This document shows positions 4,356 through 24,200 of a DNA stretch of 45,368 nt, one piece after another. The notes below the pieces were generated by a model, which saw only the letters and a program-made list of their open reading frames with translations, was not told the DNA's origin and made no database searches. The stretch covers positions 1-45,368 of IMG/VR virus record IMGVR_UViG_3300045738_000494; one strand, written 5' to 3'. The position numbers and the translations under genes were made by a program. This stretch comes from a virus. Position 1 is the stretch's first letter. Each line of letters starts with the position of its first letter.

Positions 4356-4841
4356 ATGCCTATTAATGTTCCACAGAGTGTTTTCGATAAATACTTTGAC
4401 GTGATTGATTCCACGTTTACCATTTTTGGTATTACGTGTCAGTTGGTCTACGTGGAGAAGGTGGAAGAGATTTCGTCCTCTTTCGATAACTTCCCCACTA
4501 TCAACTCAATCAGCGCTCATAGACGAGGGCCGGGAGCGCCCGCCTTTTCTAGAGCAGGCAGTGTATTTAGAGAGGTAGAAACAATAGAAGACATTAAGCT
4601 TAAGGTTTATTGGGACAGCAGATCGTGGGTAAAGGTTAGTCAAGACATAGTAGCTCCAGACAACTCAATACAGACAATAGGATATATGACAGATTTGCCC
4701 AAAATACTAAGGGCAAAAGAATTAATAGTTCACAAGGACATTAAAGATTACGGCGAATTAAGATTCAAACGGACTGGGGAACACTTTCCCGTTGGCCTAA
4801 AACAAACGAGATATTTTGCGTGCTTTTGGGAGCGCGTATAA
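4356..4841 (+). CDS. Putative head-closure / head-tail connector protein
   Basis: This 161-aa protein is preceded by an AAGGAG site. After an N-terminal helix (VPQSVFDKYFDVID), the sequence looks like a small beta-barrel. The strand IKLKVYWDSRSWVKV is followed by DNSIQTIGYMTDLPKIL, then RFKRTGEHFP, and the chain ends RYFACFWERV. That pattern (a barrel with a TxGyxTDLPkil turn and an aromatic-WERV end) and the length fit small stopper or head-closure proteins that plug the portal-adaptor channel. Gene order supports it, because a gp10-like gene, a terminator-like gene and a tube gene follow. The stop codon overlaps the next start by one base (TAATG), implying translational coupling. The assignment is by pattern and position only. 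Confidence 0.55.
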   Translation: MPINVPQSVFDKYFDVIDSTFTIFGITCQLVYVEKVEEISSSFDNFPTINSISAHRRGPGAPAFSRAGSVFREVETIEDIKLKVYWDSRSWVKVSQDIVAPDNSIQTIGYMTDLPKILRAKELIVHKDIKDYGELRFKRTGEHFPVGLKQTRYFACFWERV

Positions 4842-5488: not shown

Positions 5489-5489
5489 C

Positions 5490-6461
5490 ATGGGACAATT
5501 TTCTCTAAAAGGCTTTGATAGTGTTTTTTCTGCAACCCTTAATAATGAGTTGCAAGATAATTTAGTGGAGTTTTTTGATTGGGCCCTGCTAGAGAAAGGT
5601 AACTACTTTAACATATTCCTTGGTGAATTGTCTCCAGATGGGTATGATTATAGTAAATTACGTCTCTCTTCTGATCCCAACTATACTTCAGGACAGGTCT
5701 GGGAAGGCTTTAGGTCTAACTGGGTATGGCAAAGCGGCGTAAGTTACAGCCCTACCCCAACGGTGGGATCAAATGCGCTAAAACCGGGTATATCTGGTGT
5801 CTATGTAGACAGCACGTTTTACCCTACTGACACGACAGGAACGTATGCACACCACGTTAATTACTTTGATGGGCAGATCATTTTTGACTCTGCGATACCA
5901 ACTGGTAGTGTGGTTCAGGCGGAATATAGCTATAAATGGATAAATGTTGTTTATGCAAACAGCATACCTTGGCTTAGGGAAGTCCAATACAGGTCTCATG
6001 ACCTTGGTGCTGGGTTTTTCCAAGCTGGGAAGGGCGATTGGGACACCCCTCCAGAGACTAGACTCCAGCTTCCGGCGATAGCTGTTGAAATAGTTCCAAG
6101 GAGGTTTAGCAGAGGATACCAGCTTGGTGGCGGACAATGGATATATACTGATGTATTGTTCCACTGTATAGCTGAAGACGAACTAACAAGGAATAAGCTT
6201 GTAGATATCGTTTCTTATCAGGCTGACAAAAGGATAGGAACTTTTGATAGCAATAAAGTCGCTGAGAGTGGTGATTTTCCCATAAACTACCAAGGAATAC
6301 CCGTTTCTGGGGCATTATCTTATCCAGATTTGTCCGAAAGGCACGAAGGAAGGCCAGTTTGGCTAATAAATCCCTCTGTTCAGGGAATGGACATGATAAA
6401 TAGCAATCTTTACGGCGGAATCGTAAAGATGACCACAGAAGTAATTAAAACAAACATGTAA
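5490..6461 (+). CDS. Putative tail terminator / neck protein
   Basis: This 323-aa protein has an upstream GGAGG site inside the end of the previous gene. The N-terminal region (FSATLNNELQDNLVEFFDWALLEKG) is helical. The middle, up to about residue 150, looks like an inserted beta domain. The C-terminal half has PAIAVEIVPRRFSRGYQLGG and QWIYTDVLFHCIAEDELTRN, then a helix. The pattern 'PxIaVE...yQLGGG.w...d..fHc.Ae' recalls tail terminator proteins, which cap the growing tube and dock it to the head. The gene immediately precedes the tube gene, the usual place for a terminator. It is longer than most terminators because of the central segment. This is inference from motif and order. Confidence 0.5.
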   Translation: MGQFSLKGFDSVFSATLNNELQDNLVEFFDWALLEKGNYFNIFLGELSPDGYDYSKLRLSSDPNYTSGQVWEGFRSNWVWQSGVSYSPTPTVGSNALKPGISGVYVDSTFYPTDTTGTYAHHVNYFDGQIIFDSAIPTGSVVQAEYSYKWINVVYANSIPWLREVQYRSHDLGAGFFQAGKGDWDTPPETRLQLPAIAVEIVPRRFSRGYQLGGGQWIYTDVLFHCIAEDELTRNKLVDIVSYQADKRIGTFDSNKVAESGDFPINYQGIPVSGALSYPDLSERHEGRPVWLINPSVQGMDMINSNLYGGIVKMTTEVIKTNM

Positions 6462-6466
6462 ATTTT

Positions 6467-6485
6467 GTGTATAATAAAATAGACA
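6467..6485 (+). promoter_or_regulatory. Promoter-like element before the tail tube gene
   Basis: GTGTATAATAAAATAGACA lies just after the preceding stop codon and 27 bases before the ATG at 6513. An almost identical element (GTGTATAATTAGATAGACA) sits before the gene at 44057. The TATAAT core is intact but I see no -35 hexamer, as in many phage late promoters. The following leader, ACCTT.TAA.TAGGAGA, is also shared. Confidence 0.6.
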
Positions 6486-6512
6486 TATACCTTCTAACTA
6501 GGAGAGAATAAA

Positions 6513-7694
6513 ATGGCTGCTAATAATAGAATTTTCTACGCTTGCCAAGCGGTTGGTTTGAAGCCGATGGGAAGCCCCATAGCTCAATACGCTACCGCCC
6601 ACGGCGTTCAGAGCGTAGGCATCACTACTAACTTCAATCTTGAGCAGGCTTTTGAGCTTGGTCAGATCCAGATTTATGAAAACATCGAAGGTTTGCCCGA
6701 TGTAGAATGTACAATGGAAAAGGTGCTTGACGGCTATCCATTGCTCTATCACTTAGCCTCACAGGCTGCTACCAGCCCCGGATTGGTTGGTAGAAGCAAG
6801 CAAAGGGCAGACGTAGCCCTTGGCATCCACAGTGACGAACAAGACTCCGTAAATGACGGCCAAACTGAACCGGGCGTTCTTGTTTTCATGTCTGGTATGT
6901 TTATTAACAGTATCAGCTACACTGTTCCTGTTGATGGAAACTCAACGGAATCAGTTACCCTTGTTGGTAACCATAAAGAGTGGTTTGAGGGATCAAGTAC
7001 AGACACTGTTTATGTGTCACACAAGAAATTTGTTGTTCCGGCGGCCACCTTTGGTGTTGGCGATGGATCAGCAGATTATCCAAAAGCTTACGACGGTGCC
7101 AGTGGCGGTGTTCAAAGGCGCGAAAACGTACTGTTGAGCAAGTCAATCATGCCACGAAGTATGTTTGGTAACCTCGCTGGTGATGTCCTTGGAACTGAAG
7201 GCGTAGGTAACGCCGAAGATGCTGAAGGAATTCCTATTCTGCATATTCAGAACTTCACCACAAGCACAGACTTTGGGCGTGAAGACATTTTGGAATTTGG
7301 AAGAAAAGCTCCTTATACCAGAACGCCTACGTTCCCAATCGAAGTCTCCACAGAGCTTGAAACAATCGCTATCTCTGGTGACTTTGTCGGTGCTTATGAA
7401 GAAGGTGACCCAAACCTGTTTGAGACAAACGCTTCTGGCGACAACACTCAGGAAGAGCAAATTGTTCTGGTCATGAGGGGCGGAATGGCTTTCGACCTCG
7501 GGACTAACAACAGGCTTTCTTCTATAGCTTACGGTGGAGGTGACGCTGCTGGTGGCAACGCAACCATTACCTACAGCTATACCAACTTTAATGAGTTAAC
7601 CGTGCTTGATAGTGGTGACCCAGCCCTTAATGACAATCTCGGACTTGGCAGCATGCACTACTCTGCGGCGCAGTCGGGCTACCTAGGGATGTAA
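6513..7694 (+). CDS. Probable major tail tube protein
   Basis: This 393-aa protein has a strong AGGAG site. The N-terminus (VGITTNFNLEQAFELGQIQI, then ENIEGLPDVECTMEKVLDGY) has the alternating strand-rich, acidic style of phage tail tube proteins. Ig-like or extra beta segments follow (VLVFMSGMFINSISYTVPVD; VEVSTELETIAISGD-like strands), with no signal peptide or cysteine cluster. A major tube subunit must be made in hundreds of copies, which fits its separate promoter-like element and excellent ribosome binding site. It lies after a terminator-like gene and before the chaperone-position genes and the tape measure gene, the canonical tube position. An alternative is a major capsid or decoration protein, but the order and strand pattern favour the tube. 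No sheath gene is adjacent. Confidence 0.65.
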   Translation: MAANNRIFYACQAVGLKPMGSPIAQYATAHGVQSVGITTNFNLEQAFELGQIQIYENIEGLPDVECTMEKVLDGYPLLYHLASQAATSPGLVGRSKQRADVALGIHSDEQDSVNDGQTEPGVLVFMSGMFINSISYTVPVDGNSTESVTLVGNHKEWFEGSSTDTVYVSHKKFVVPAATFGVGDGSADYPKAYDGASGGVQRRENVLLSKSIMPRSMFGNLAGDVLGTEGVGNAEDAEGIPILHIQNFTTSTDFGREDILEFGRKAPYTRTPTFPIEVSTELETIAISGDFVGAYEEGDPNLFETNASGDNTQEEQIVLVMRGGMAFDLGTNNRLSSIAYGGGDAAGGNATITYSYTNFNELTVLDSGDPALNDNLGLGSMHYSAAQSGYLGM

Positions 7695-7713
7695 ACTAAC
7701 TAACTAGGAATTT

Positions 7714-7762
7714 GCGGCGCAATTTGCGATAGCTAACAAGGACAGCGAGTGTCTTGTGCCGC
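7714..7762 (+). promoter_or_regulatory. Imperfect RNA hairpin downstream of the tube gene
   Basis: GCGGCGCAA (7714-7722) can pair with TTGTGCCGC (7754-7762), giving 9 bp with one G-T wobble. The loop contains a smaller GACA/TGTC stem (7741-7753). The heptamer CTAGGAA flanks it on both sides (7704-7710 and 7762-7768). No T-run follows, so it is not a standard terminator. It may protect the abundant tube mRNA 3' end or act in processing. Confidence 0.45.
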
Positions 7763-7793
7763 TAGGAAGGATATAGGTCTATGATATACAATG

Positions 7794-7842
7794 ACTCCCC
7801 ATATGAGGTTTTGTGATGAAACAGCATATGCGGGAGTTTTTT
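7794..7842 (+). terminator. Terminator-like hairpin that holds the next start codon in its loop
   Basis: ACTCCC-CATATG (7794-7805) pairs with CATATG-C-GGGAGT (7825-7837), giving 12 bp with one bulged C. TTTTT follows at 7838-7842. An upper stem of GTTT (7808-7811) with AAAC (7819-7822) leaves a 7-base apical loop TGTGATG carrying the start codon at 7816. GAGG at 7805-7808, the ribosome binding site, lies in the paired or bulged part. The shape fits an intrinsic terminator or attenuator that would also limit translation of the next gene. Confidence 0.6.
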
Positions 7843-8856
7843 GTATCTAGACTAAGGACGGGCCTTGTGTTTATTAGGCGCGACGATAGAGTTGCGATTG
7901 TTCACTCACCAACTCTCCTACAGAGCTTGGTGGCCAACCAGTTTGCTGCTGATGCATACGAAGAGGCTGAATTTAGCGGTGTTATGTCTAAAGATGAGAT
8001 GCTGGAGTGGATGATCGAGAAGGAAATGTGGGGAGAGGAAGACGAAGAGCGGATAGAAGGATTAACAAAAGACCTTGAAAAGCTAAGAATAGCAATATAT
8101 CACAACAGGGAAAATGACTTCCTAAGGGAAGAGATAAGGAAAGGCATTAGGGCGGGAGAATCGCAACTATCAGAAACCTCCGCCAAAAAATCAGAATATG
8201 AAATAAACACCTGCGACGGCATAGCCTTGCTCTCAAGATATAGGTGGATTGTGGAGAATTGCTGTACATTTGAAGACAATACGCCTTATACTTTTGAGGA
8301 CATGAGTGCGGAATACATTATAGCAGAGTATCAAAATTCGTTTCTTTCAGAGAAGCAGCTAAGAGAACTAGCTAGAACTGAGCCTTGGAAATCACAATGG
8401 TCTGTATCCAAAAACTCGGGCAAGAGCCTGTTTCTCGACCCGGAAAGCGAGTTAACACAAGACCAAAAGGGAATACTAATATGGGCGTCCATGTACGATA
8501 ACATCCAAGAACACATGGAGTGTCCTCCAGATGAAGTCCTTGAAGATGACGATGTGCTAGATGGATGGTTCTTGGTACAACGAGAAAAGAGGAAGAGGGA
8601 AAAGCTAGAACAAGAATTTGAGGACAAAACAAGCGATAAAATTAAAAACGCAAACGAGGTGTTTATAGTTGGCGATCTCAAGAAAAGCCAGAGCAAGGCA
8701 GACGCCATGAACGACCCCACGGCGACGATGCACAGAAGATCGAGAGAAGCACAGATAAAGAGGAAAGGCCATGTCCAACAAGGAGAGTTTTTTGATGAAC
8801 AACTGGATATGAGGAAACAGCAAAGCGATTCGTACAAAAATAAGTTTAGGAGCTAA
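7816..8856 (+). CDS. Tail-assembly-chaperone-position protein A (paralogue of the gene at 9242)
   Basis: 346 residues from ATG 7816, with GAGG at 7805-7808; a GTG directly before it and an ATG at 7828 are alternatives. The protein is very charged and helical. From about residue 60, SGVMSKDEMLEWMIEKEMW, a coiled-coil segment, then NTCDGIALLSRYRWIVENCC and TFEDNTPYTFEDMSAEYI match, in order, DGIMTKKELEKFMEESGVW, a coiled coil, and SDNAKFDFLVANCTF...DVYYTSVEDY in the gene at 9242. The two genes are therefore diverged paralogues. The C-terminus is rich in Lys/Glu/Gln and probably disordered. Position between the tube and tape measure genes suggests tail assembly chaperones, but no frameshift fusion is evident. 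Translation starts inside a terminator-like hairpin. Confidence 0.55.
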   Translation: MKQHMREFFVSRLRTGLVFIRRDDRVAIVHSPTLLQSLVANQFAADAYEEAEFSGVMSKDEMLEWMIEKEMWGEEDEERIEGLTKDLEKLRIAIYHNRENDFLREEIRKGIRAGESQLSETSAKKSEYEINTCDGIALLSRYRWIVENCCTFEDNTPYTFEDMSAEYIIAEYQNSFLSEKQLRELARTEPWKSQWSVSKNSGKSLFLDPESELTQDQKGILIWASMYDNIQEHMECPPDEVLEDDDVLDGWFLVQREKRKREKLEQEFEDKTSDKIKNANEVFIVGDLKKSQSKADAMNDPTATMHRRSREAQIKRKGHVQQGEFFDEQLDMRKQQSDSYKNKFRS

Positions 8857-8877
8857 TAGGAGGCAATAAGGATTAGT

Positions 8878-9249
8878 ATGGATAATTTTAATGATATGTT
8901 GAGAGAGGCAACGGACTACAAACAGAAGAGGGAGGAACAATATAGGTCTGACTCTAAAGACCGCCTTGCGAAGATTCTTAAAAAGAAAATAGAAACTACG
9001 ATGATTGGCGCTTTGAGCAGTATAGAAGAACACTTTGGGTTTTTGTGGAACCAAGAGGCAGGATCTATGACAGATGAGCAAATTTTTATGAAAGATGCTT
9101 ATCAAAAGATTAGGTCTGAGATTTTAGACAAGGGAAATGCGCAAGCCAGAAATATAGACGCTGAGTTATCTCAGTATGATGTTAAGTGGCTTAAGTATAC
9201 GATTAAGATACCTGTTATTAAACAATTGGAGGAAGGAAATAATGGCTAA
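8878..9249 (+). CDS. 123-aa helical protein of unknown function in the tail-chaperone cluster
   Basis: This 123-residue protein starts MDNFNDMLREATDYKQKREE. It is preceded by AGGAGG (8858) at a long spacing and AAGGA (8868) at a closer one. It is almost entirely predicted helix, with a basic coiled-coil segment (RLAKILKKKIETTMIGALSS) and the ending YDVKWLKYTIKIPVIKQLEE. No catalytic motif or membrane segment is seen. Its stop overlaps the start of the next gene by 8 bases (ATG 9242, TAA 9247-9249), which suggests coupled translation and a joint role with the flanking paralogues, perhaps as a third component of the tail assembly chaperone system. That role is inferred only from position. Confidence 0.6.
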   Translation: MDNFNDMLREATDYKQKREEQYRSDSKDRLAKILKKKIETTMIGALSSIEEHFGFLWNQEAGSMTDEQIFMKDAYQKIRSEILDKGNAQARNIDAELSQYDVKWLKYTIKIPVIKQLEEGNNG

Positions 9250-10207
9250 GAATAAAAACGATAAAGTAGTAGAGGTTAAGCTAGACAACGGAGAAACTAT
9301 TAAGGTTATAGTTAAAAGACCGTCTAATAGAATTAACGCCAACGCGCAGAGAGTCGCGGCTAAAGTTTGGACTGATTGCGTTAGGGATGGAATCATGACC
9401 AAGAAAGAGCTTGAAAAATTCATGGAAGAGTCTGGCGTATGGACTAAAGGCAAGATGAAATCTCAAGACCAGATTGTTACGGATATTCAAAGCCTTGAGA
9501 GGAGGCTGTATCTTGGTAAAAAGGGCTCTAAAATGAAGGTCTCTGCGGCTAAGGATATAGCCCTTGAGATGAGGCAGAAGAGACAAGACCTTAGGGACTT
9601 GATTGGCGAGCGGATTGAGCTTGAGACAAATTCAGCAGAAAGCCTGTCTGATAACGCAAAATTTGACTTTTTAGTGGCAAATTGTACATTTAAAGAAAAC
9701 GGCGAAGATGTGTATTATACTAGTGTAGAGGACTATGAAAGCCTGAGCGAAGATCCCGTCGCCTTTCAGGCGGCTTCTGCTTTAGCAGAGATGATTTACG
9801 CCGTTGATAAAGACTTTGAGGCAAAATTGCCGGAAAATAGGTTTTTGAAGCGAGCCAATCTTGTAAATGAAGACCTTAGCTTGGTTGACAAGAAGGGCCA
9901 GAGGGTTGACGTTGAGGGTCGCCACATAAATGACATTGGTCACTATCTCGATGACGAAGGCGGCAGGGTAGATGCTGATGGGCACCCTCTAGACAAAGAT
10001 GGTAACTATATTCCACAAATGACGTATACTGCGGATAATGGCAGAGCTATCAAGTTTGAGGAAGACGAGGAAGAAAAGCCCGCTGAGGCAGAGAAGCCTG
10101 CTGAAGAAGAAGCCAGCGAAGCGGAGGAACCTGCTGAAGAAGAATCCAGCGAAGCGGAGGAACCTGATGTAACAGAAGAATCAACAGAGGGCGAAACGGA
10201 AAGCTAA
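9242..10207 (+). CDS. Tail-assembly-chaperone-position protein B, with acidic tail
   Basis: 321 residues from ATG 9242, chosen because GGAGGAAGGAAAT lies just upstream; an in-frame ATG at 9176 lies deep in the previous gene and lacks such a site. The N-terminus (DKVVEVKLDNGETIKVIVKR) is a small beta segment. A coiled-coil core follows, then SDNAKFDFLVANCTF, shared with the paralogue at 7816. After that come Gly/Asp turns repeated every 7-8 residues (DVEGRHINDIGHYLDDEGG, then RVDADGHPLDKDGNYI), and a Glu/Ala-rich acidic tail. Acidic tails are common in assembly proteins that must keep hydrophobic partners soluble. It precedes the tape measure gene by 34 bases. A role as tape measure chaperone is inferred. 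Confidence 0.58.
   Translation: MAKNKNDKVVEVKLDNGETIKVIVKRPSNRINANAQRVAAKVWTDCVRDGIMTKKELEKFMEESGVWTKGKMKSQDQIVTDIQSLERRLYLGKKGSKMKVSAAKDIALEMRQKRQDLRDLIGERIELETNSAESLSDNAKFDFLVANCTFKENGEDVYYTSVEDYESLSEDPVAFQAASALAEMIYAVDKDFEAKLPENRFLKRANLVNEDLSLVDKKGQRVDVEGRHINDIGHYLDDEGGRVDADGHPLDKDGNYIPQMTYTADNGRAIKFEEDEEEKPAEAEKPAEEEASEAEEPAEEESSEAEEPDVTEESTEGETES
10097..10162 (+). repeat. 33-bp direct duplication in the acidic tail coding region
   Basis: Two adjacent 33-bp units begin CCTGCTGAAGAAGAA at 10097 and 10130 and differ at one or two bases. They encode PAEEEASEAEE and PAEEESSEAEE, followed by a third partial start (PDVTEE). This is an in-frame expansion of a disordered acidic tail. Confidence 0.88.
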
Positions 10208-10241: not shown

Positions 10242-13200
10242 ATGTCCAAATTTGTACTGACTGCACAATTACAACTTCAGGCACCTAATAATGTAGGCGC
10301 AGTTGTAAAGCAGATTCAAAGCCAACTTAAGTCCGTAACCGTTAGCGTTAAAGCTAAGAATGCCGCACAAGCTACAAAGCAAGTGCAGGGGCTCTCAAAG
10401 GCTTTAACTCAAGCGGACAAGGCTTCGTACAAACTAGGCAAAACCTTTACATCTTCGCTAAAAAGATTTGCTGCGTTTTCCGTTGCTACCAGAGCTGTAA
10501 GTCTGCTGACTCAAGGCCTTGGTGGAGCTATAGCTGAAGCCATAAGCTTTGAGCGTGAGCTTATGAAGGTAGCTCAGGTTACTGGTAGAACGTTGGGACA
10601 GCTTAAGGGCCTGACCGACGAAATAACCAGACTTTCAACCACCCTTGGGGTTAGCTCAAAAGAGCTACTTGGCGTCACGAGGGCCTTGTCCCAAGCTGGC
10701 TTTAGTGCGTTTGAGGCCAAAGTAGCCCTAGACGCCCTAGCAAAATCTTCCCTTGCTCCTACCTTTGAAAATATGGGGAAAACCGCCGAAGGCGCAATCG
10801 CCATCTTCAATCAATTCGGAAAAGGCGCAGAGGCCCTTGAGGGCCAGCTTGGCGCTATCAACGCCGTGGCCGGTCGGTTTGCTGTAGAGGCCGGTGACTT
10901 AATATCTGCGGTTCGTCGTACTGGTGGTGTCTTTAAGGCTGCCGGTGGTAATCTAAACGAACTCATTGCCCTCTTTACATCTGTAAGATCTACGACTCGT
11001 GAATCCGCCGAGTCTATCGCTACGGGTCTTAGAACTATCTTCACACGTATCCAACGCCCCAGAACTATCAAGTTCCTCAAGGAGATGGGCGTCAATCTAG
11101 TAGACCTTGAAGGTAAATTCGTTGGCCCTTATGAAGCGATTAGACGGCTGAGTGAGGCCATGAAGAACATGGAGGCCGGTGACTTAAGATTTGTCAAGGT
11201 TGCTGAACAATTAGGTGGATTTAGGCAGATTGGTAAGGTCATACCCTTAATACAGCAGTTTGCCGTTTCCCAAGAAGCCCTAAACGTTGCTATGGGAGGT
11301 ACAAGCTCCCTAGCTGATGACGCGTCGAAGGCGCAGGGAGCCCTAGCCGTAAAGGTGCAAAAGCTCAAAGAAGAGTGGCTTGCCCTAATAAGAGGCTTCT
11401 CTGATAGTACCGGCTTCAAGATTATGATCAACTCCGCACTAGGTCTAGCTACCGCTATAGTCAAAATGCTAGATGCTCTCAAAGATGTCCTACCTATCAT
11501 GATGGCTATTGCTGGCGTTAAGATGTTCAGGGGGATGGGCGGCTTCATGGCCGGAGCAAAAAGCGGAATGGTGTCGAGCGTCCCAAAGATGGCTTCTGGA
11601 GGGATGGTTCCCGGCAGCGGCAGCGGGGATACCGTTCCAGCTATGCTCACGCCCGGTGAATTTGTTATTAGAAAGTCTAGCGTCAAGAAGATGGGCGCTG
11701 ATAACTTGAATAGCATGAACACTAGGGGATATGCCTCCGGTGGAACGGTTAAGCTAAAGGAGAATAAAATTGGTGGCTTCTTCCTTATTCCAGAAAAAGG
11801 AGCCTCAGATAAAGCGTTCAAATATAAGCCAAGTAAGCTGAAAACTGTAACAAACCCTCACGCGGTTGCTGATTTTACTACCGGAGCTGGAACCGGATCT
11901 TGGGCCGGGGCGGGCAAGGATGGTGAAAATTCTGACCCCTATTCGTGGGGGGGCGGAAAATCCGCAGAAACATTTGGAGAGGCCGGGGCTGCGGAAGCTT
12001 TTTCGTCTTTACCTAGAAAGAAGCAGGACTCGATATTAGAAAGACATGGAATAACGCACAGCCAAACTAACACAGGTTCAAAAATAAAGCTTAACCAGTT
12101 ATCTTCCTCGCTCCCTTCTAAGATGGTGGGTGAGTTAGCAACTGAGGTAAAGCCTACCAGCTTGCAAGTTGATGCTACCGCGCCTAAGATGAGGGCATTT
12201 TTCTTGGGACAGGGAAACAAAAAGACATCTGGAAAAGTAGCGGAGGCGGTTACTAGACAAACCGTAAAGGGGCTAAAGAGCATAGTTAACGGTCTGATGA
12301 AAGACGAGGCCGATATCAAAGCTCTCAGTAAGGGAAAAGGGGCTTTAGACGTTGATGAGAAAAAGGTAAAAAAGGCTTTGAATAGTCTCTATGACAAAGA
12401 TGAGGAGGGGGGAGCAGTACAATCAATAGAAGGATTTGCTAATGAAGGCTTGATTGGAAGCCTGACTGGGGCTATAGTTGGTGGTGGCGGGACTGGCTTT
12501 GACTTTCCAAACCTTAACACGCAAGCCGACGCCAAAACACGCCTCAAGGCTCTATATGGCGAAGATGGGGTTAATGCGCTTCTTCATGCGGACGCCAAGA
12601 GAAGCCTTAAGGGTTCAAATGAGAAGATATTCCAAAAAGCCTTTAAAAGCTTGGAAAAGGGACAGAACGCATCAGACTATAAAGCGATGTGGGATTTCAG
12701 CCCCAATAAGGTAAGGAAAAAGGCTTCTGGTGGCCCAGCCGGAACAGATACAGTTCCCGCTCTTCTCACTCCCGGTGAGTTCGTTGTTAATGCGAAATCC
12801 GCACGGAGCATCGGACAGGCTAATCTTAATAGAATGAACAAAAGGGGCGTTGCCGGATTTGCGGCTGGAGGCCCCGTTCAGAGGTTCGCAGGAGGCGGAG
12901 GGGCCCAGCAAGTAGGAATGGGTGGAATGGGCATATTGATGGCCCTTCCCATGATTCAGGCTGGGTTTGAAAAGATAGCAGGTGAGTCTGAAACGATGAG
13001 CGATGCCTTCTTGGGCATAACTACTGGCGTAACTTCTTTCATGGGCGTTATGATTCCCATGCAGATGATCATGTCTAGATGGGGTTCTTCGGCTAAAGAC
13101 GCCGCCGATGAAACGGACGAACTGGCCGCCGCTGCCGCTGCCGCTGCCGACGCAGCGGAAGCCGATATACAGGCCGCCACTATAAACATCACTGCCACCT

Positions 13201-16200
13201 CGGTTGTTATCAGCGGTGGTGGAGGCGGTGGTGGGGCCGAGGGGAAGGACATAGCCGCGATAAAAATCTTACAGTCTGCGCAGAAAGATGGCGATAAGAA
13301 GATCGTTTCGGCAATCGACCCGATTGACGATGAGATTAAGAATCTCGACCTCGGCGGCGGCGGAGACAGCAAGAAGGGTGCGCCCGTGGAAGAGCGCGGA
13401 ATGATCGTCAGCGATACCGATAAGGTCAAGCCAAGCAAAGGCGGTGGCAAAGCGGAAGCTGCTGTTCAGACTATGGCTGTGAAGGTAGACAAGATGGCGG
13501 TGATTGCCAACAGCGTGCAGTTGATGGTTAAAGGCGCTCCTAAAGAAGATAGAGCAGAACCTCCTAAGGCTTTGCCAGCACCAGAAGTTCTCAAGGGCTT
13601 GCCAGCACCAGAAGTTCTCAAGGGCTTGCCAGCACCAGAAGTTCTAAAGGGCTTGCCAGCACCAGAAGTTCTCAAGGGCTTGCCAGCACCAGAAGTTCTC
13701 AAGGGCTTGCCAGCCCCTGACACCAAGAAAGCCGACGCAGAAAAGGAAGAGAAAAAGCTGCGCGGTATTGAACAGGCGAGAGTTGGTTCGGCACAAAATA
13801 AGGAATTTGCGGCGATGGATCGAGGCAAAGTCGCTCAGGACGCTCTCGATCAAGCAGACACGGCGCTGGCGACCGCTCAAACTCCAGCCCAAATGAAAGC
13901 CGCTATGCCCGGCACCAAGACTCAAGATGAAGAGTTGATGGCACTGGGGAAACAAGCGGGAGCCGCTGCGCACTTTGGAGGAAAAGTGGATGAAAGAATG
14001 GCAAAGAAGGAGGGGAAACTGGCAGAAGCCGACGAGGCAATGCAGAAAGGGCTGAACGATGAGTCAAAGGGATCGAGAGGAATCAAAGCTGGCAAAAAGA
14101 TGCAAGACGAGGGCATGGCAGATCTTGAAAGGCTGCAAAAAGAGGAAAAGGCTATAGCGACTCGTCCCGGAGTTAAGACCACCGGGGCTCCGGGTTCTGA
14201 AGAATTCAAAAAAACCAAGGCTGCTGGAGAGGTGTTTGAAGCTCAACGAACAAAAGAGCTTGAGCAAAATACGGCGGCCACCCAAGCGTCAGAAAAGAAG
14301 GTCTCGCAGGGGATGCAGCAGGAGGAGGCCGGACGAACGACACTGCACGCCGGTCAACAGCAAAAATTCGATGCTCTTACGCAACAGGAGACACTTACGG
14401 CGGGGGTGGGTCGAGACAAGCAGAAGAAGGCTCAGTATGATCAGGAATTGTCTACGGCCCAAGAAGGCATTGAAGCAAACATGGGCGCTAGAAGGGCGGT
14501 TATGCAGGAGAAGGTCGTACAGGAGTCGCAGGTGGAAGCTGGACATATGCTTGCAAAAGAAGGACACGCTGATGCCGCACTACAGCGTAGGGCTGCCGCC
14601 GGTGATCAGGAATCCCAAAGGGCCATTGCCAAGAAGGCAGCCTTGAAGGGTGAAGAAGGCATCTTGCCTTCACAGAAACCCATTACGGCTGGCCCCGGCC
14701 CAGCGGCGGGTGCAGAAGCTGATGTAGCGGCGGCGGTGCCGGAGAAGAAAGCTGTAACCCATTACGATACTCTGGGTGTTGATCCATCCGCCAGCCCAGA
14801 AGAGATCCAAAAGGCTTATAGAAAACAAGCGAGGAAGGTTCATCCCGACGTGAAGGGTGGATCAAAAGAGGCGTTTCAGCAACTCGGATCGGCCAAAGAT
14901 GTTCTTGCAGACCCAGCTCGGCGGGCGAAATATGACAAAGATCTCGCGGCCAAGGCGGATGCCGCAGTACCGTCAAAAGACGTTCCGCCAACAGGCCCGC
15001 CAACAGGCCCGCCAAAACCGCCGGTTCTGGGTCTTCCGGCCCCTCCAGCGCCGCCGGAGGACGAACCGCCAAAACGCCGTCCCCCAGCCAGCGCGCAAGA
15101 TCGACAACGGCTTGATCAAGATACCCGTGGCGCGGGCGCAAAGATAGCGGACGCTATGGACAAGATTGCCGTACAGATTGACAAGAAGGTTAGGGGCAAG
15201 ATCAAGAAGATGGAAGAAACCTTTGCTCAAGGTGCCAAGAACCTCAAGAAAAAGTGGAAGGACGCTGGGGGGGCAGTTGGGGTAGGGGGAAGAATGATGA
15301 AGGGGAGCTGGAAGATGACGAAAAATGTCATGATTAAGGGCGCGCAACTGGTTAAGCAGGGGTGGAAGAAGGCCGCAGACGCGGTCAAATCAGGTGCCAA
15401 GATGGTCAAGAAAGCTTGGAGTAAAGTGAAGGGCGCACTTGCCAAGATGGGAGCCAGCAAGGCGGGCATTGCCAAGCTCGGCGCAGCAGGAGTGGCCGCA
15501 GCTAAAGGTGCGATAGATGGGATGAAGGCTGTTATGGACAAAACGTGGCAGAAAGCCCTAAAGGCAGGATCACTGGATCTTGCTGACGTTGATGCTGGGG
15601 CGACCGGCTCTGACGTTTCTGGTACTGAACAAATGATACGAAGCAAGCTGCAAATGGACATGATGGCCTCAAAGGCTGGCGGAGCCGCGTCTGGCATGAT
15701 GGCCGGTGGTATGCTTGGGCCGGTAGGAGCAATTGCTGGAGGTATTATAGGAGCCTTTGGTGAAGAGATAACGGCTGGACTTGGCTCAATGTTCAGTGGT
15801 GGAAGTTTTGCTGAGGGCGTGGCGGATGTGACGGTAAAGAAGAGACAAAATCTTGAAGCTGAGATAGGACAAAAGCAGCTAATGGATTTCTCGACAGACT
15901 TTGGTGATATGATGAAAGATATCAAGGAGTCTAAGGGTAGCGCAGAATCTCTGGAGGCAGTAACCAAGGGCTTCAAGACGGCCGCAACAGCTATTACAGC
16001 TATAGAAAAAGTTGATCCAGAAGCAGCAAAACGAGCGACGAAAGACCTCGACAAGAGGGCGGTCAGTGCTGCGGAAGCGATTGGTAGCTCTGTAAGAAGT
16101 CAGGCAGAACTAGATGAAAGAATACAAGCGTTAACCTCTGCATACGGCAATAATATAGAAGCGGTTAAGAACGCCGCCAAGTCCGCGTTTATAGCAGCGG

Positions 16201-18197
16201 AAGCACTGAGAGCTGTGGCCGACCTAAAGGCCGATGTTTTAGTGGTGTCTTCTATATTTGGTGCGGCTGGAGTAGCTGTTAGTAATTTCACCAGCAGCCT
16301 AGTAACCGGGGCAAATACTATGACTGCCACGGTTAACACTCTCAAAGAGGCTCAGAAAAACATTGCGATGGGCAGAGGCGGCACAGCGGCCGTAGAAAAA
16401 GCAAGAAAGGAAGTGATGGAGAGAAGCGGAATATCCGCTGACAGCGAGGCGGGCAAGGCAATAAACAGGCAGTTCGATACCCTTGGTCAAGCCGCCGATG
16501 TTACCGCACGTCTTCCGTCATTTCTCAAGGATACTAAGATTTCAAAGGGAGACAACCCAATCCAAGTCAGGGATCAGCTTACAGAGGGTCTGGTAGACGC
16601 AATGGGCATAGACCAAGACAGCCAGATGGGCAAGGTAATCGCTGGCCAGATTGGGAAATTGACAGACGATCAAATACGAGACATACAAGAGGAGAAACTT
16701 GACTTATCAACAGCCCTTGCATCGCTCGGCCCCGAGATTGCAAAGCTTGGTGAGGGAGCACTCAAGGCGGCAGAAGCGCTTCAGAAGCATGAAGCAACCA
16801 TGATCAAGATGACACAGCAGAGAATTAAGATGGAAGGCAACCTTCTTAAGGCGCAGCAAAAAGCCGTTGATTTGCAGATTGAAGCTGCCAAGATAGCCGC
16901 AAAGCATGGTGGCAAACAGGTTACCGCCGCACAGAAGCGGCAAGCCGTTGTTGACAAGGCTAACCTGCAAGCAGGTCAAGCCGGAGTTAGAGGTCTCGCA
17001 GGAACATCCGGCGGAGACATACGGAGTATGTCGGCCCGGATAACACAAGCGTCTGGTATGCAGTCATTTAGGGCGCAGCTTCCCGGAGCATTTGGCGGAA
17101 CTAAAGGTCTTGATGCTGATAAAAGAAAGGACTTAGCGGCAGCCCAGCAAGCACTCATTAAAACCACAAAAGAGTTGATCGCCATTGAAAAAGAAGAGCT
17201 TAAGATAACCAAGGAAAAGAATAGACTAGAAAGACAGTCTCTTGAGTCTTTGCTTGGCGGAGACGTTGAGGGATACTTTAAGCAGCAGGGCGCAATGGGG
17301 GCCACAGCCGCCGTGGCAAGTGGAAGCCAGACGCTAATGTCTATGTTCGGAGCGGATGAAATGGCTGGAGCGTTCAAGAATGTTCAACAAATGGAAAAGG
17401 CTGGAGTTGGGCAAGTTGGAGGAATGGACATAAATACCCTTGTAGGTCGTACTGGTGCAGCGGCCTTGGGGGCGAGGGGTATAGATGATCCTAGGGCTGC
17501 GGCTGTGCTGACTGGTCAAACCGCCGAAGAGCAAGATTCAAACAGAAGGATAAGAGATCTAGCGGGCGGACTTGGGGCTATTGGTGAAGGCGCTGCCCAA
17601 ATGATGGAGATGGAGGTCAATACGGCCAACATTAATATTAGCAACGCCAACGTTAAGTTTAAGACTGAACTTGGTAGAGCCGCAGAACAGTTTGTCAGAG
17701 GTGGGCCAGTCTACGCAAACGCTGGACTGTTTATCCCCAAGGGTACAGACAGAATTCCTGCCATGCTCACTCCGGGTGAGTTTGTGATAAACAGAGCGTC
17801 TGTCAACAGGGGCAACAACCTACAGATACTTAGAGCAATCAACAGTGGAACTTCTGCCGGTGTCGCTCAAGCCATGAGCGGGGGAGGTCAGGCTGGGTAC
17901 TACGCAGGCGGTGGAGCAGTTGGAGGAGCCCTAAGCAGTGACTTAATCAACAAGCTGTCCGATAGTCTCAGGAGCTTTAATGCAAACCTAAAAGAAAACA
18001 TAGATAGATTACAAAAAACCAAGTTCCAAATCAAATTAGATAACACCAATGTCACTGTAAATCTCAAGAGCGGCGGGTTCCTAAGAAAGCTTAAGAAACA
18101 GGTTAAGGATGAGCTTCTTGCTGAGGTTGGAGATCAGATTAAAAACCTTAAATTTAATGATGCTGGAGAAGCCTCTACCGATAATAACGTTTTATAG
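10242..18197 (+). CDS. Tape measure protein with embedded J-domain
   Basis: This 2651-aa protein sets tail length and normally leaves with the DNA during ejection. Residues about 97-300 show the TP901/PhageMin-type core (FERELMKVAQVTGRTLGQL; LGVSSKELLGVTRALSQAGF; RESAESIATGLRTIFTRIQ). GDTVPAMLTPGEFVIRK-type motifs, frequent in tape measure proteins, begin near residues 463, 836 and 2503. Between the first two is a nuclease-like motif set (E730/E735, D754, D784-x-K786). Residues 1111-1159 are LPAPEVLKG repeats; 1507-1567 form a J-domain with HPD at 1534-1536; a Pro-rich linker follows. Residues about 1650-1766 are Lys/Trp/Gly amphipathic helices, and 1813-1843 a glycine-zipper hydrophobic segment. 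The C-terminus is coiled coil. The start has a modest AGGG site. The middle third looks like a mosaic inserted between ordinary tape measure parts. Confidence 0.9.
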   Translation: MSKFVLTAQLQLQAPNNVGAVVKQIQSQLKSVTVSVKAKNAAQATKQVQGLSKALTQADKASYKLGKTFTSSLKRFAAFSVATRAVSLLTQGLGGAIAEAISFERELMKVAQVTGRTLGQLKGLTDEITRLSTTLGVSSKELLGVTRALSQAGFSAFEAKVALDALAKSSLAPTFENMGKTAEGAIAIFNQFGKGAEALEGQLGAINAVAGRFAVEAGDLISAVRRTGGVFKAAGGNLNELIALFTSVRSTTRESAESIATGLRTIFTRIQRPRTIKFLKEMGVNLVDLEGKFVGPYEAIRRLSEAMKNMEAGDLRFVKVAEQLGGFRQIGKVIPLIQQFAVSQEALNVAMGGTSSLADDASKAQGALAVKVQKLKEEWLALIRGFSDSTGFKIMINSALGLATAIVKMLDALKDVLPIMMAIAGVKMFRGMGGFMAGAKSGMVSSVPKMASGGMVPGSGSGDTVPAMLTPGEFVIRKSSVKKMGADNLNSMNTRGYASGGTVKLKENKIGGFFLIPEKGASDKAFKYKPSKLKTVTNPHAVADFTTGAGTGSWAGAGKDGENSDPYSWGGGKSAETFGEAGAAEAFSSLPRKKQDSILERHGITHSQTNTGSKIKLNQLSSSLPSKMVGELATEVKPTSLQVDATAPKMRAFFLGQGNKKTSGKVAEAVTRQTVKGLKSIVNGLMKDEADIKALSKGKGALDVDEKKVKKALNSLYDKDEEGGAVQSIEGFANEGLIGSLTGAIVGGGGTGFDFPNLNTQADAKTRLKALYGEDGVNALLHADAKRSLKGSNEKIFQKAFKSLEKGQNASDYKAMWDFSPNKVRKKASGGPAGTDTVPALLTPGEFVVNAKSARSIGQANLNRMNKRGVAGFAAGGPVQRFAGGGGAQQVGMGGMGILMALPMIQAGFEKIAGESETMSDAFLGITTGVTSFMGVMIPMQMIMSRWGSSAKDAADETDELAAAAAAAADAAEADIQAATINITATSVVISGGGGGGGAEGKDIAAIKILQSAQKDGDKKIVSAIDPIDDEIKNLDLGGGGDSKKGAPVEERGMIVSDTDKVKPSKGGGKAEAAVQTMAVKVDKMAVIANSVQLMVKGAPKEDRAEPPKALPAPEVLKGLPAPEVLKGLPAPEVLKGLPAPEVLKGLPAPEVLKGLPAPDTKKADAEKEEKKLRGIEQARVGSAQNKEFAAMDRGKVAQDALDQADTALATAQTPAQMKAAMPGTKTQDEELMALGKQAGAAAHFGGKVDERMAKKEGKLAEADEAMQKGLNDESKGSRGIKAGKKMQDEGMADLERLQKEEKAIATRPGVKTTGAPGSEEFKKTKAAGEVFEAQRTKELEQNTAATQASEKKVSQGMQQEEAGRTTLHAGQQQKFDALTQQETLTAGVGRDKQKKAQYDQELSTAQEGIEANMGARRAVMQEKVVQESQVEAGHMLAKEGHADAALQRRAAAGDQESQRAIAKKAALKGEEGILPSQKPITAGPGPAAGAEADVAAAVPEKKAVTHYDTLGVDPSASPEEIQKAYRKQARKVHPDVKGGSKEAFQQLGSAKDVLADPARRAKYDKDLAAKADAAVPSKDVPPTGPPTGPPKPPVLGLPAPPAPPEDEPPKRRPPASAQDRQRLDQDTRGAGAKIADAMDKIAVQIDKKVRGKIKKMEETFAQGAKNLKKKWKDAGGAVGVGGRMMKGSWKMTKNVMIKGAQLVKQGWKKAADAVKSGAKMVKKAWSKVKGALAKMGASKAGIAKLGAAGVAAAKGAIDGMKAVMDKTWQKALKAGSLDLADVDAGATGSDVSGTEQMIRSKLQMDMMASKAGGAASGMMAGGMLGPVGAIAGGIIGAFGEEITAGLGSMFSGGSFAEGVADVTVKKRQNLEAEIGQKQLMDFSTDFGDMMKDIKESKGSAESLEAVTKGFKTAATAITAIEKVDPEAAKRATKDLDKRAVSAAEAIGSSVRSQAELDERIQALTSAYGNNIEAVKNAAKSAFIAAEALRAVADLKADVLVVSSIFGAAGVAVSNFTSSLVTGANTMTATVNTLKEAQKNIAMGRGGTAAVEKARKEVMERSGISADSEAGKAINRQFDTLGQAADVTARLPSFLKDTKISKGDNPIQVRDQLTEGLVDAMGIDQDSQMGKVIAGQIGKLTDDQIRDIQEEKLDLSTALASLGPEIAKLGEGALKAAEALQKHEATMIKMTQQRIKMEGNLLKAQQKAVDLQIEAAKIAAKHGGKQVTAAQKRQAVVDKANLQAGQAGVRGLAGTSGGDIRSMSARITQASGMQSFRAQLPGAFGGTKGLDADKRKDLAAAQQALIKTTKELIAIEKEELKITKEKNRLERQSLESLLGGDVEGYFKQQGAMGATAAVASGSQTLMSMFGADEMAGAFKNVQQMEKAGVGQVGGMDINTLVGRTGAAALGARGIDDPRAAAVLTGQTAEEQDSNRRIRDLAGGLGAIGEGAAQMMEMEVNTANINISNANVKFKTELGRAAEQFVRGGPVYANAGLFIPKGTDRIPAMLTPGEFVINRASVNRGNNLQILRAINSGTSAGVAQAMSGGGQAGYYAGGGAVGGALSSDLINKLSDSLRSFNANLKENIDRLQKTKFQIKLDNTNVTVNLKSGGFLRKLKKQVKDELLAEVGDQIKNLKFNDAGEASTDNNVL
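12423..12620 (+). other. PD-(D/E)xK-nuclease-like motif set within the tape measure protein
   Basis: Residues 728-793 read SIEGFANEGLIGSLTGA, GGGGTGFDFPN, then HADAKRS. Conserved-looking acids E730/E735 and D754, and D784-x-K786, have the order and spacing of the PD-(D/E)xK nuclease fold. The segment lies between the first two GEFV motifs. Activity is unproven, and a structural relic is possible. Confidence 0.35.
13572..13721 (+). repeat. 27-bp tandem repeat in the tape measure gene
   Basis: Five 27-bp units beginning TTGCCAGCACCAGAAG start at 13572, 13599, 13626, 13653 and 13680; a sixth partial unit starts at 13707. They encode LPAPEVLKG five times, then LPAPD. Only a single base change (CTA for CTC) is visible among the full units, so the array is young or actively homogenised. 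Confidence 0.95.
14757..14946 (+). other. DnaJ-type J-domain encoded inside the tape measure gene
   Basis: Residues about 1507-1567 read HYDTLGVDPSASPEEIQKAY, RKQARKVHPDV, then FQQLGSAKDVLADPARRAKY and D. All J-domain landmarks are present in order: the Y-x-x-L-G start, helix II with basic residues, HPD at 1534-1536, helix III, and the final RxKYD. No glycine/phenylalanine or zinc-finger DnaJ regions follow; a Pro-rich linker does. Confidence 0.9.
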
Positions 18198-18211: not shown

Positions 18212-21200
18212 ATGACAGACTGCTTGTGCGTAAAAAGGGCGGATAGCATCTTAGAGGGTGCTGGAGGAATAGCTGTTGCAAAGCTATCAGCAATTGCAGC
18301 TATACGCACTAATATCGTTGGCGTTGGGTCTATCAAGGCAACGATGATTAGGGAGAGAGGGGCTGCCGCGTCCCCCACGGCAGAAGCCAACCTTTATTGG
18401 AAAGGAAAGACCGGCAGAGGTATCATCGGCTCCATTGGGGTAAGGGTGGGCCCCAAGCTGGCAGCAGACATAGTTCTTGGGGGCTTGTGGCACCCGCCGG
18501 ATTTCTTCCTTTCATATGGGCCTTATTCTGAAGTACCTGAAGTAACCCATCTAGGCTCCTTCTTTACGATGACCGCCGAGGGGGATATTAATCACGGCCT
18601 TTCGGTTTCCAACAATTTAGATATTTCTCTAATTGGCAGCGGTAATCTTCTCATACCATTTACAGATAAGTTCGCAGGCCCCTTTGCGGACTTTGGGTGT
18701 GTTCAGAAACAGTATCCCATCAGTGACATAACCAACATCAACTTTGTAACAGAGCAGAATAAGCTAGAAAACTTATACCAAAGCATTGATGAAGGCTTGT
18801 TTACTGGGAACTATCACACTCACGGTCTTGTTAGTGATAGAATCTCTGACGATAAAACTACATATATACAGCCTTCCTCCGTGCAGACGGAAGGAACTTT
18901 TCTCTATAAATGCCAAATAACCAAACCCACTATTACTGGCAAGCATAGTAGAGTGTTCTTTAGGGCTGCTGCGCCGCTCAAGAATTATGACGCAGACATT
19001 CCAGCAGAATACACAATAACCAATATCAAGATAGAAGATCCGGGCGGCGGACTGATAGCCTACTACAAAGATATTAAACTAAAAGGTGACGCCAATTTTG
19101 ACGACCCAGATGGCTATGTGAACTTTGCCACCTATGCCACTGAGCCAGAAGTCAACAAGCTAGAACTCTACCAGTGGCAGTCTGGCTATCCAGATATGGA
19201 GCAATCCACTGGCTATAGCCTCACGTTCCAAGTTTTGGCGCAGTCTTTTGATGATCCTTTCGATGATGGCTTTGACATTGGCTTTGAAGAAAATTCTGAT
19301 GTCTATGAGTCATTTTCCGACGACGGTGATTATCTAGCACTTGAAGGGGCACCTCTTTCTACGCAGGGGCAAAGATACTTAAATCCCTCTAATTCTATTA
19401 GGATATCAGCCGTAGAGATATGCAACAGTGGTTCTACGGCGGGCCTCCTGAAAGAACAGTATGTTCCTATATTCCTAGAGGTACGCCCAAGTGGCGACAG
19501 CCTTGAAAGAAGGCTCAGGCCCACGCAGTTCCTTCTTAATAGCTTTGACTCTGGGATATTCCCCTTAGCCAGTAGCATTTGGGAACTACCTTCAACCAGC
19601 AAGAATAACACTACGCTTGCCGGAGCAGACAGCCTTCTAAACGCGTTGGCCTATCTGGACGACGATTACTACGTCAGGCTTGACTCCGTTGATTCAGAAC
19701 ACCTTGCTGATTCTGGAAAGCTGATGCTTAAGTTCGGATTGTCAAACCCAGAGGAAGTCCTCTTTACCCGAAGAGGAGAATTTGGATTTGGTCACACTAA
19801 GAAAGAATTTAATGTAGGAGACAAGAAAGAAGTTGATACATTCTTTACAGTTAACAGGGCTACGTTAAGGGTGAGGGCTAAGAAAGAGGCGGGAACTAGG
19901 GATTACGCGCTGGATGTTGTTGGCTGGAGCGACGACAAGCTTCTCCATGTAACCCCTGCGGTTGGAGGGTTTTTACAGAACGAAGAGGGCGTTGGTGATT
20001 ACCCTGTCAGTTCAGGCTTCAATACCACAGACTATCTCGCCTTTGATGGCGAGCCCATGTCTGATCAAGACCAGTTCTATAGTGGCATACTCCCAAATAA
20101 CGCCGGTGGAGACCACTACGTGTTGTCAACAGTGCCGGTGGTCACAGGCACAACGTTTGAATGGTATGAGATACCTCTTAGGATTTACGAGGACAACGTG
20201 GATCTTGGTAAGTCAATAGACTATTCCATGAGTTCATATTTTGAACACCTATATCTAGACATCCACCCTCTGCCGTCTGGGGCACAAGTCTCCTATATAG
20301 AACTGTGCTTGAAATATAGTCCGTCTACCGCAGTTAAGTTGCACACTATTGGCTCAGAAACTATAGGTCATATAACAAGCGAGAGGTCTGAGGGTAGAAT
20401 ATATCCAACAAGCAGGCAGTCGGGCGACAGCGTGATCAATGCTGGCTCTGGTTTTGCCCCGCTCTCCACTATAGAAAGCATACCACACGCATTTACAACT
20501 CCAGATAGTATTAAAACAAATTACTCCAGACGGTGGAGAGGAATAAACGGATTAGTAAACGGCCCATTTGACCCCAACATGTTTGGATTCGGTTATGAAA
20601 ACCCTCAACTGGATTATCCCTTCACTTCCGGCTTCTTTGACTTTGCTGATGCTACAAATGGGGTAGCCACTATATCCTCCAAGACATTAGGGGACGGCCT
20701 AGTTCCCTTAACTGGAACTATATCCACTACATACACGGACTACCTATTTAAGAATGTTGGGTGGAGATTCAAAGATCAAGACATATTCACAAACGAAAAG
20801 CCCGGCTGGACTAGCAACTATAAGACGACCGACTGGACATCCTTAACCAATGGCGCAGAAAACTTTACGGATCACGAGCTTTATGGTCAGATAGCAGATG
20901 CGTTTGATACAGTTATTAGAATATCGGGCCACAATTCAAGCGTAAACTTTGGGGCCGCATCTCTCAACGACGCTTTTGCTGTTTATACTAGATTTGCTCC
21001 AGACATCTCTGTTAGTGGGGCCTCCCCATCCTTCAATGGCTTTTCCTCTGGCGTACTTGTTTCCAAGTGGGACGCTGGCGAAGACCTCGAATTTGCTTTG
21101 GGCTATGAGGGCGGCTATCTTTGTGGTTTTGCGAATACAAACGCAGGAGACTTGGTTAAAGTCAAGGATACAGTCCCTTATAGTGGCTATCAATTCCCTC

Positions 21201-24200
21201 TATCTGTAATGCTGACCTATAACGACAATGATTCACAAAAACTCAGGCTATATGCTGACAACGAGATTAGTGGCTACTGGAACCCCGGAAGCTGGGACAC
21301 CCTAAGAGCAACTTCTGCCACGTTTACCAGAAATACTGGTACAAGCAATCTCGTGTTGGGATACTCTAGCGGATCTGGCGTTGGAATGAATATGTTTGTT
21401 AGTGAGTTTGGTGTTTCAAACAGTGGCAATGTTGTATACTCAGACGCAGATTTATTGTACAAAGAAGTTGTAGCGGACAAGTTCTTAGAAAACACTAGAG
21501 TTAAATTCTGGGAACCCGACGAAAGCTACACCAATGACTCCTATAAACTGTGGGATAGAATAGACGAAACCACTCTAGATTGGGATTTGGGTGCCTTTAA
21601 GCATTGTCAGTTTGGGGTTGGCTATGACGGCTGGACAAAACGATCAGGAAGAGATTCCATATCATTTAACCTGAACCATGCCGGAAGCGGATATTCTCAA
21701 TACGCAACAAAAACTATGCCCGCTACAGTCGATAGCGACCTTGCTTATCATACACAGATAGAAAACGACTTCCTTAGGTTCAACCTTAGCGATGCGTCTG
21801 ATAACTTCTACGCCGTTGCTCCCCGTATATCAAAATCGCTACCTCGCGGCTATGATTTCTCAGAAAGAGCAATGGTTGTTGAGACTGTCTTAAGCCACAC
21901 TTCCGATACAGACATTTCTTGGTCTGGCGGTAAAGTTGGGCCTAAGCTAATTGTTAGCCTCTATACTAAAAATCAAGAGCCAGCAAGTTACGCTACAACC
22001 AATTACGGGCTTATTAATAGGTCAATCCACTATCTTGAATCGGGGTGCATTTATAGGCTAGACAGCACCTTTGACTTTAATAATTTTGTTGATGAATCGG
22101 AGCAGTGGGCACTATTCCCGTACACAAGAAGGTTAACGGAATTCAACCATAAGTATTACTCCAAAGACATTGACGATATGTTCTTGCAGTACGACTTGGT
22201 TTATCCGTCTGGCGGAGCCTTCAAATCTAGGATAGATATACACACAGCACATGTCAGGCTAGACAACGCCTTTGTTAGCGCCTCACCACACAGCGGAACG
22301 CTTCCGGTGTATATGAGTGGAGAACTGCGAGCTAGGGACTCTGTGAGCCTGCATATGGTTAGCATAGACTCGGTAACCAATCTGTCTGGAATAAATCACC
22401 TTGGTCAGTGGGAGGCTATACCAAACGGATTAAGTTTGCATACAAAGTATGATCCGACTCAGACAACTGCTAACGTAAGCTTACATACGGAAGGTTTGAA
22501 GTATACAACTGCAAGTATGCCACTGTCTCTTAGGAACCTCGGAATTATAGACAGCACGATTGGGTCTTATAGCGGGGTTTCAATATCTACTAGTGGCGGC
22601 CTCCCCGTTGGCACCGGCAATATGCCTCTTGTGACCTACCAAGTAGACTCCATGACACCATCAAGTGGTAGCTTGCCGCTGTTTAGCTTTGCCTCAACAG
22701 TTGGCTCGCTGGGATCTTTTGCAGTCTCCCCGCTGTACTTATACAGTACTCCCACTGGCAGAACGGTTGGATACTCAAGCGGTTCCATGCCCCTGAATAC
22801 CATTGGCTTAGGAGCCCCATTTGACTCCCTCCCTGAAGCCAGCATGAGCCTGTTTGTCAGGGCTCCCCACACGCCAAGCTCCATATTAAACCTGTACACA
22901 TTCAGCCAGAATGTTCCCGTGGTAATGTCGGGAACTTTGGGGCTTCACACCGTTAGCACCAGACTAACAAGCGGGCTGGCGTCCTTCTATTGGACTAACA
23001 AAAACGCAGGCTCTCCGATAGATGTAGACGATAACCTAGGTGATGTTTTGTTTGCTAAAGCAGACAATGATGAGATTAGAGGTGTAGATTTAATTTGCTT
23101 TGCTGATTGTTCTATCGGTGGATGTACAGAAAAAGCCCTAGTTACACACGACACAACTTGGAGAGAGCCCGAATGTGTTGACGGCGGAATCTTTAGAGCC
23201 AAGGCAACTTACACAAATCTCGACTATAGTTATAGCGGCGACTTCTATGGCATAAGAAAGTTTACTGGCCTTGAACCCGGCACGCGGTATGACATAACAA
23301 TTAAGGGCAAGACCGGAAACGACAAAGGCTTAGTGCCCCCAAGGGAGTGGGAAGAGTGGGAATATGGATCAACTGATACTATTAACTTCTCTGGGTTCAA
23401 GCTAATAGGTGATCATCCTTACGCTACTTCTGGTAGAAACGACAGCGTAAATGATAGCTATGGACGGGCGGTTTCCATTAAGGGCGACCTTATGTTAGTT
23501 GGAGCCCCCAACCACCACTGGAACGCCGAGGGAAGCGGTTGGTTGCCAAACGCCGGTGCTGCGTTTGCCTATAGAAGGATAACCCCCACAAACAGTGGAG
23601 GAAAATACTTCTGGGACTTTGAGCAAAAAATAGTACTGCCTTCGGGATTCAGGTCTGATAGCTATGCACACAAGGGCGACGTAAGCTTCTTTGACGGTCT
23701 TCCCGCTATTCCAAAGAGGAAGTGGAACGTTGGCCAAGAAGGCAGGCAGTTTGGATCTTCGCTGGCAGTCTGCTCCAGTGGAGCTAGAGAAATCGCCGTA
23801 GTTGGCGCGCCCAACGCGGAGTTTAGCAGAGACTTTGATTCAGACGTTGTCACTAGAGACGTGCCCATACTTGCAATAGTTGTCACCGATGAATTTAAAA
23901 CCGATGACACGCTAACTAGCCTTGCGGCGAACATATATAATATCATACATACGAATAATAATTTATATAAATACTATGCAGAAACACCAGCCAAACTTTC
24001 CATGAAGCTGCTCATATGTGACGCTCCCCCGCACACAGACGGGGATAAAGGTCACGACTTTCTCACACACGCAAAAATAGACAGAAATAACGTTGGGGGA
24101 GCGACCACGCTTGAAATATTTAGTGGAATACAAGATGGGTTCTTAAAGGCTTATCCATATGACACCAGCAAGCCATTTAACAACATACCCGTCTTAATGG

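Follow-up and report, generated by a model that had tools for sequence, protein, structure and literature searches.

A J-domain in the middle of a phage tape measure protein

The window, which is the whole 45,368-base stretch of DNA analysed here, is an IMG/VR fragment from an uncultured aquatic phage. Its tape measure protein, of the kind that determines the length of the tail and normally enters the host by ejection, contains a complete J-domain with an intact HPD tripeptide, in frame in the middle of the chain. This had been proposed in the original prediction, and is borne out by a match over the full PF00226 profile, together with PF10145 and phrog_28 matches of the same protein. J-domains and tape measure proteins are both known families; what appears new is their fusion, which is known from one sequence, that of this uncultured phage.

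14757-14936, + strand: J-domain, residues 1506-1565 (PF00226, E 1.4e-18; predicted fold; Foldseek)
14841-14849, + strand: HPD tripeptide, residues 1534-1536 (sequence)

The segment 14757-14946 is translated into THYDTLGVDPSASPEEIQKAYRKQARKVHPDVKGGSKEAFQQLGSAKDVLADPARRAKYDKDL, in frame within the 2651-residue ORF at 10242-18197. The search with the Pfam DnaJ profile, suggested along with the original prediction, gave a significant match that covers profile positions 1-63 of 63 with a score of 67.1 bits, compared to a cut-off of 27.8, and a match by chance is ruled out. The domain had been placed at 14757-14946; its start is correct, but its end was set 10 bases too far, as the profile match stops at 14936. 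The closest PDB sequences found by phmmer are also J-domain proteins, including DNAJA1 (PDB 2lo1, E 2.7e-14).

For the structure prediction, AlphaFold2 was given the J-domain segment of the window together with related J-domains from six viral sequences. The model has four helices (44-48, 56-70, 79-93 and 95-111 in segment numbering), with the HPD at 71-73 between helices II (56-70) and III (79-93), so that the predicted fold contains the helix II/III hairpin, the lack of which would have counted against the original prediction. The pLDDT is ~73-84 for the core and low for the flanks. In a structural similarity search with Foldseek, 15 matches reached E <= 0.001, every one of them a J-domain. 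The best matches include PDB 3ucs at 1.6 Å, and the DnaK-bound J-domain of DnaJ (5nro_B) was matched at 2.1 Å with E 3.3e-3.

All landmark residues of the J-domain are kept, including the hydrophobic core. Alignment against E. coli DnaJ showed that R22, R36 and K48 are replaced by Q, V and Q, respectively, at positions that presumably contact DnaK. A Pfam scan found no G/F region and no zinc or CTD substrate-binding domain after the J-domain, and the protein is not a type I/II DnaJ. Moreover, the whole 2651-residue chain has no cysteine.

Identity and architecture of the tape measure protein

Profile matches, homology and gene order together identify the ORF at 10242-18197 as a tape measure protein. 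It matches phrog_28, annotated as ‘tail length tape measure protein’, its two ends are homologous to >80 ORFs of equal size with the same upstream genes, and it is a long ORF placed between two tail-assembly chaperone-like ORFs and putative distal tail genes, neighbours named from their position, an order found in the relatives as well.

8878-9249 and 9176-10207, + strand: overlapping pair of ORFs, tail-assembly chaperone-like (conserved ahead of the tape measure gene in 76 loci)
10242-18197, + strand: tape measure protein gene, 2651 residues (PF10145, E 8.9e-26; phrog_28, E 7.3e-23; 121 distinct homologous ORFs)
10242-11741, + strand: conserved N-terminal block, residues 1-500, with PF10145 at residues 126-312 (matched in 83-87 of 87 long relatives)
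11601-11756, + strand: first DTVPAMLTPGEFVI motif, residues 454-505 (kept across tape measure relatives)
12237-12779, + strand: segment with conserved E...FDFP...DAK, residues 666-846 (nuclease-like signature by eye)
12708-12887, + strand: second DTVPALLTPGEFVV motif, residues 823-882 (sequence)
13572-13706, + strand: five LPAPEVLKG tandem repeats, residues 1111-1155 (sequence)
13722-14711, + strand: charged rod, residues 1161-1490 (composition; matched by zero relatives)
14946-15116, + strand: proline-rich linker, residues 1569-1625, 32% Pro (composition)
15207-15422, + strand: 18-residue cationic repeats with periodic Trp, residues 1656-1727 (sequence)
15681-15761, + strand: glycine-zipper hydrophobic segment, residues 1814-1840 (sequence; Gly-zipper Pfam hits in relatives)
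16689-18194, + strand: conserved C-terminal block, residues 2150-2651, with a third PGEFV motif at residue 2511 (comparison of relatives)

The J-domain is preceded by the charged rod, which is probably helical judging from its composition, and followed by the proline-rich linker, the Trp repeats and the glycine-zipper, a possible membrane segment. Each of the 18-residue cationic repeats has its Trp at the same position. The three copies of the DTVPAMLTPGEFVI-type motif (11601-11756, 12708-12887 and 17721-17846) belong to a motif that the tape measures of this lineage conserve and that T4-like cyanophages have in some of their proteins. Between PGEF motifs 1 and 2 lies the E/FDFP/DAK segment, conserved across 26 relatives, which by eye looks like a PD-(D/E)XK nuclease; Pfam and PDB-profile searches gave no usable match for it.

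The genes at 4356-10207 are conserved upstream of the relatives’ tape measures. The two ORFs at 8878-9249 and 9176-10207 are called chaperone-like from their position; they overlap in different frames, as do those of the relatives, and a programmed frameshift between them is possible. Downstream, 18212-29860 encodes a 3882-residue ORF with FG-GAP repeats, which has homologues in the loci of 30 relatives.

A J-domain in one of 121 homologous tape measures

Relatives were gathered by scans with the region of the PGEF motif, with an N-terminal alignment and with the adjacent chaperone-like gene, while single-sequence scans with the tape measure N-terminus and the 618-residue downstream gene found no relatives. 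Isolate phages gave weak matches to the 45,368-base record. The MAG contigs retrieved by a scan of a genome collection are from scattered taxa, and the top one is labelled SAR202 (66%); these contigs may be misbinned, and their labels thus provide no host identification.

Every open frame of the relatives was searched with a J-domain profile made from 20 sequences, a mixed J-domain alignment having been dropped as scan query for its excessive diversity. Only one of the 121 distinct homologous tape measures has a J-domain, namely that of the window itself. Both ends are present in 83 of the 121, including the J-domain-bearing one, and the profile search found no J-domain in the other 82 complete proteins, some of which are much longer (up to 3925 residues). 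Likewise, 49 whole relative records contain no J-domain above the Pfam cut-off, with three weak hits in stop-containing frames.

Besides the N-terminal block, most of residues 2150-2650 is matched in 58-84 of the 87 long relatives, compared to 0-2 of 87 for the centre at residues ~1000-1750. By sequence comparison, the J-domain is placed mid-way in a hypervariable centre. As it has no counterpart in the 82 complete relatives, it looks like an acquired module, one that would hijack a host chaperone. A mosaic make-up has been suggested for tape measures (PMC10684548).

A Pfam scan over the centres of 76 relatives’ tape measures gave weak or generic hits, apart from ADP-ribosyltransferase families. 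In a targeted search, the tape measure of relative L060 (ORF at 7296) matches PF03496 at residues ~919-1033 with E 1.5e-7 and 24.9 bits, above the cut-off of 23.4, whereas that of L085 (ORF at 6493) scores below it at residues ~850-1000 (E 1.0e-5, 20.5 bits). Both domains carry the STS and ExE signatures and lie between PGEF motifs 1 and 2, in contrast to the J-domain, which comes after motif 2. ADP-ribosyltransferases require NAD+, which is cytosolic, so that these domains, if active, would work after delivery in the host cytosol. They are the strongest hint of host-acting cargo in the tape measure interior of this family, and because two relatives carry them, the variable interior appears to be a site of foreign modules.

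Comparison with known phage J-proteins and tape measures

A close counterpart is Rki (gp057w) of phage RB43, whose J-domain binds host DnaK and stimulates its ATPase in an HPD-dependent manner, an activity abolished by H38Q (PMC3486835). Both are phage-encoded J-domains with an intact HPD and neither zinc nor G/F region. However, Rki is a separate 237-residue protein with an N-terminal J-domain, whereas the present one is internal, starting at residue 1506 of 2651, to a structural protein expected in the virion. Jumbo phages and others encode stand-alone DnaJ/CbpA-like proteins (PMC12619734, PMC7824862) of the same J-domain family, with 33-58% identity to this one. Stand-alone phage J-proteins whose length was read have ~200-370 residues, with the J-domain near the N-terminus in nearly all, and no tape measure is found among the annotated ones.

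We considered whether such a fusion already exists in other annotated phages and rejected it, as the J-domain hits by tblastn name no tape measure. With two J-domain queries against 50,697 phage records, no such fusion was found at the sensitivity of tblastn; all hits with a known ORF or gene length, which cover part of the unannotated records, are separate short proteins. Similarly, no fusion of a J-domain and a tape measure was found in the literature, the search covering open-access papers.

Tape measures with built-in enzymes include, as cited elsewhere, those of TM4 with a peptidoglycan hydrolase motif and T5 with a zinc carboxypeptidase (PMC12619734, PMC11445458). They share with our protein a functional domain within the tape measure, but the domains there are enzymes, one hydrolysing the cell wall and the other a peptidase, whereas a J-domain works via cytosolic Hsp70. 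For phage HK97, work by Cumby et al. in 2015 reportedly connected the tape measure and a periplasmic host chaperone in genome injection. The likeness is the link of a tape measure to a host chaperone, which is periplasmic there, unlike the cytosolic DnaK; we know of no J-domain involvement in that case. Tim14/Pam18 are J-proteins of the import motor type, and would have a like role if DnaK pulls a membrane-crossing chain, a resemblance of role only.

A possible role of DnaK recruitment after ejection

J-domains trigger ATP hydrolysis by Hsp70, thereby clamping it on nearby clients. Our leading, tentative inference from sequence, model and published precedent is that the J-domain is functional, enlists host DnaK once the tape measure has been ejected and not while tails are assembled, and has the tape measure as its client. 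The working J-domain would be a module inserted in the variable interior of a protein that would fill the tail, be ejected at infection and reach the host membrane and cytosol. There it would stimulate the ATPase of DnaK, which would be locked onto unfolded chain close by, most likely that of the tape measure; DnaK might then pull, hold or clear the tape measure, aiding DNA entry or early takeover.

The kept landmark residues and the predicted fold are what selection for DnaK binding would lead one to expect. Action after ejection is consistent with the ADP-ribosyltransferase-like domains that L060 and L085 have inside their tape measures. It is also in line with the lambda tape measure, which TurboID-ManZ labelled during injection at the entry complex of the inner membrane (PMC13190303). 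Both observations concern action in the host rather than DnaK recruitment as such. In addition, the location of the J-domain in a hypervariable centre, the glycine-zipper after it, the precedent of Rki and the proposal that the JBD30 tape measure is ejected and possibly forms an entry channel (PMC11445458) favour the same reading. Against it stand the singleton status of the J-domain, some altered positions among the presumed DnaK contacts compared to E. coli DnaJ, and the different place of the ADP-ribosyltransferase-like domains. DnaK being cytosolic both at assembly and at entry, the compartment does not separate the two.

The main rival, somewhat unlikely in our estimate, is a role in assembly, in which the nascent tape measure would recruit DnaK through its own J-domain and be kept extended until the tube subunits polymerise. 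The 2651-residue chain does have repeats and hydrophobic stretches, type III J-proteins engage Hsp70 via the J-domain alone (PMC3486835), and jumbo-phage J-proteins have been proposed as aids in folding and assembly (PMC7824862). Host entry and solubility during tail assembly had both been offered in the original prediction, as inference. The latter is weakened because the 82 complete relatives without a J-domain share the same upstream chaperone-like genes, and a general need in assembly is disfavoured by those that are longer.

A delivered effector aimed at host physiology or defence, and not at the tape measure, is unlikely. It would divert DnaK, for example so that the heat-shock factor is stabilised or a defence relying on DnaJ is upset. 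Rki binds DnaK and stabilises sigma-32, but its toxicity depended on a second domain and overexpression (PMC3486835). The defence protein bNACHT25 requires host DnaJ for sensing phage coat protein (PMC12169576), and the ADP-ribosyltransferase-like domains would also fit an effector. Nevertheless, the JBD30 tape measure is a trimer (PMC11445458), and a virion would probably carry few copies against abundant DnaK.

Still less probable is that the J-domain was captured and is now passive or in decay, adding length or bulk and having no DnaK function. Its occurrence as a singleton within a hypervariable region and the changed positions in helix III would agree with this, but neutral drift would erode the HPD, the hydrophobic core and the other landmarks, which are all intact at 67 bits. 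Finally, it is highly improbable that a bacterial dnaJ fragment was chimerically joined into the phage contig, for although the flanks at residues ~1050-1700 have no homologues for comparison, the 2651-residue reading frame runs unbroken through the J-domain and its flanks, the flanks are low-complexity linkers rather than dnaJ sequence, and the G+C of the domain (0.517) agrees with that of the whole gene (0.511), as does GC3, so that composition does not point to a chimera.

The passage of tape measures and DNA through the inner membrane is not well understood. A J-domain in an ejected protein would name DnaK as a specific host partner, and the HPD histidine would give a one-residue test of this partnership. 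With a J-domain in one tape measure and ADP-ribosyltransferase-like domains in those of two relatives, it seems that tape measures can bring in host-acting cargo other than enzymes that degrade the wall. A bolder version, which we regard as rather doubtful, is that this lineage uses the interior of its tape measures as a delivery bay for modules acting on the host. Here the J-domain would make DnaK an import motor for the tape measure and the DNA behind it, an Hsp70-driven step of phage genome entry.

A J-like segment in a structural protein of T4-like phages

The N-terminus of a structural protein of marine T4-like phages has an HPD and J-like helices (L028, 3-110; L030, 2570-2800; L214, 5179-5412), and is suggestive, in sequence and model, of a second case of a J-domain in a structural protein. 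Pfam makes no J-domain call in L030 or L028. The J-domain profile scores 22 bits for L214 and L028 and 14.6 for L030, with 11 as the best of 4000 shuffles, and hhalign of the segment against the J-domain gives a probability of 33%. The top Foldseek hits of the L214 model are J-domain proteins, below significance. A close relative, L215 (1314-1538), has the same protein without the HPD, and the Bellamy homologue is located after the baseplate hub genes.
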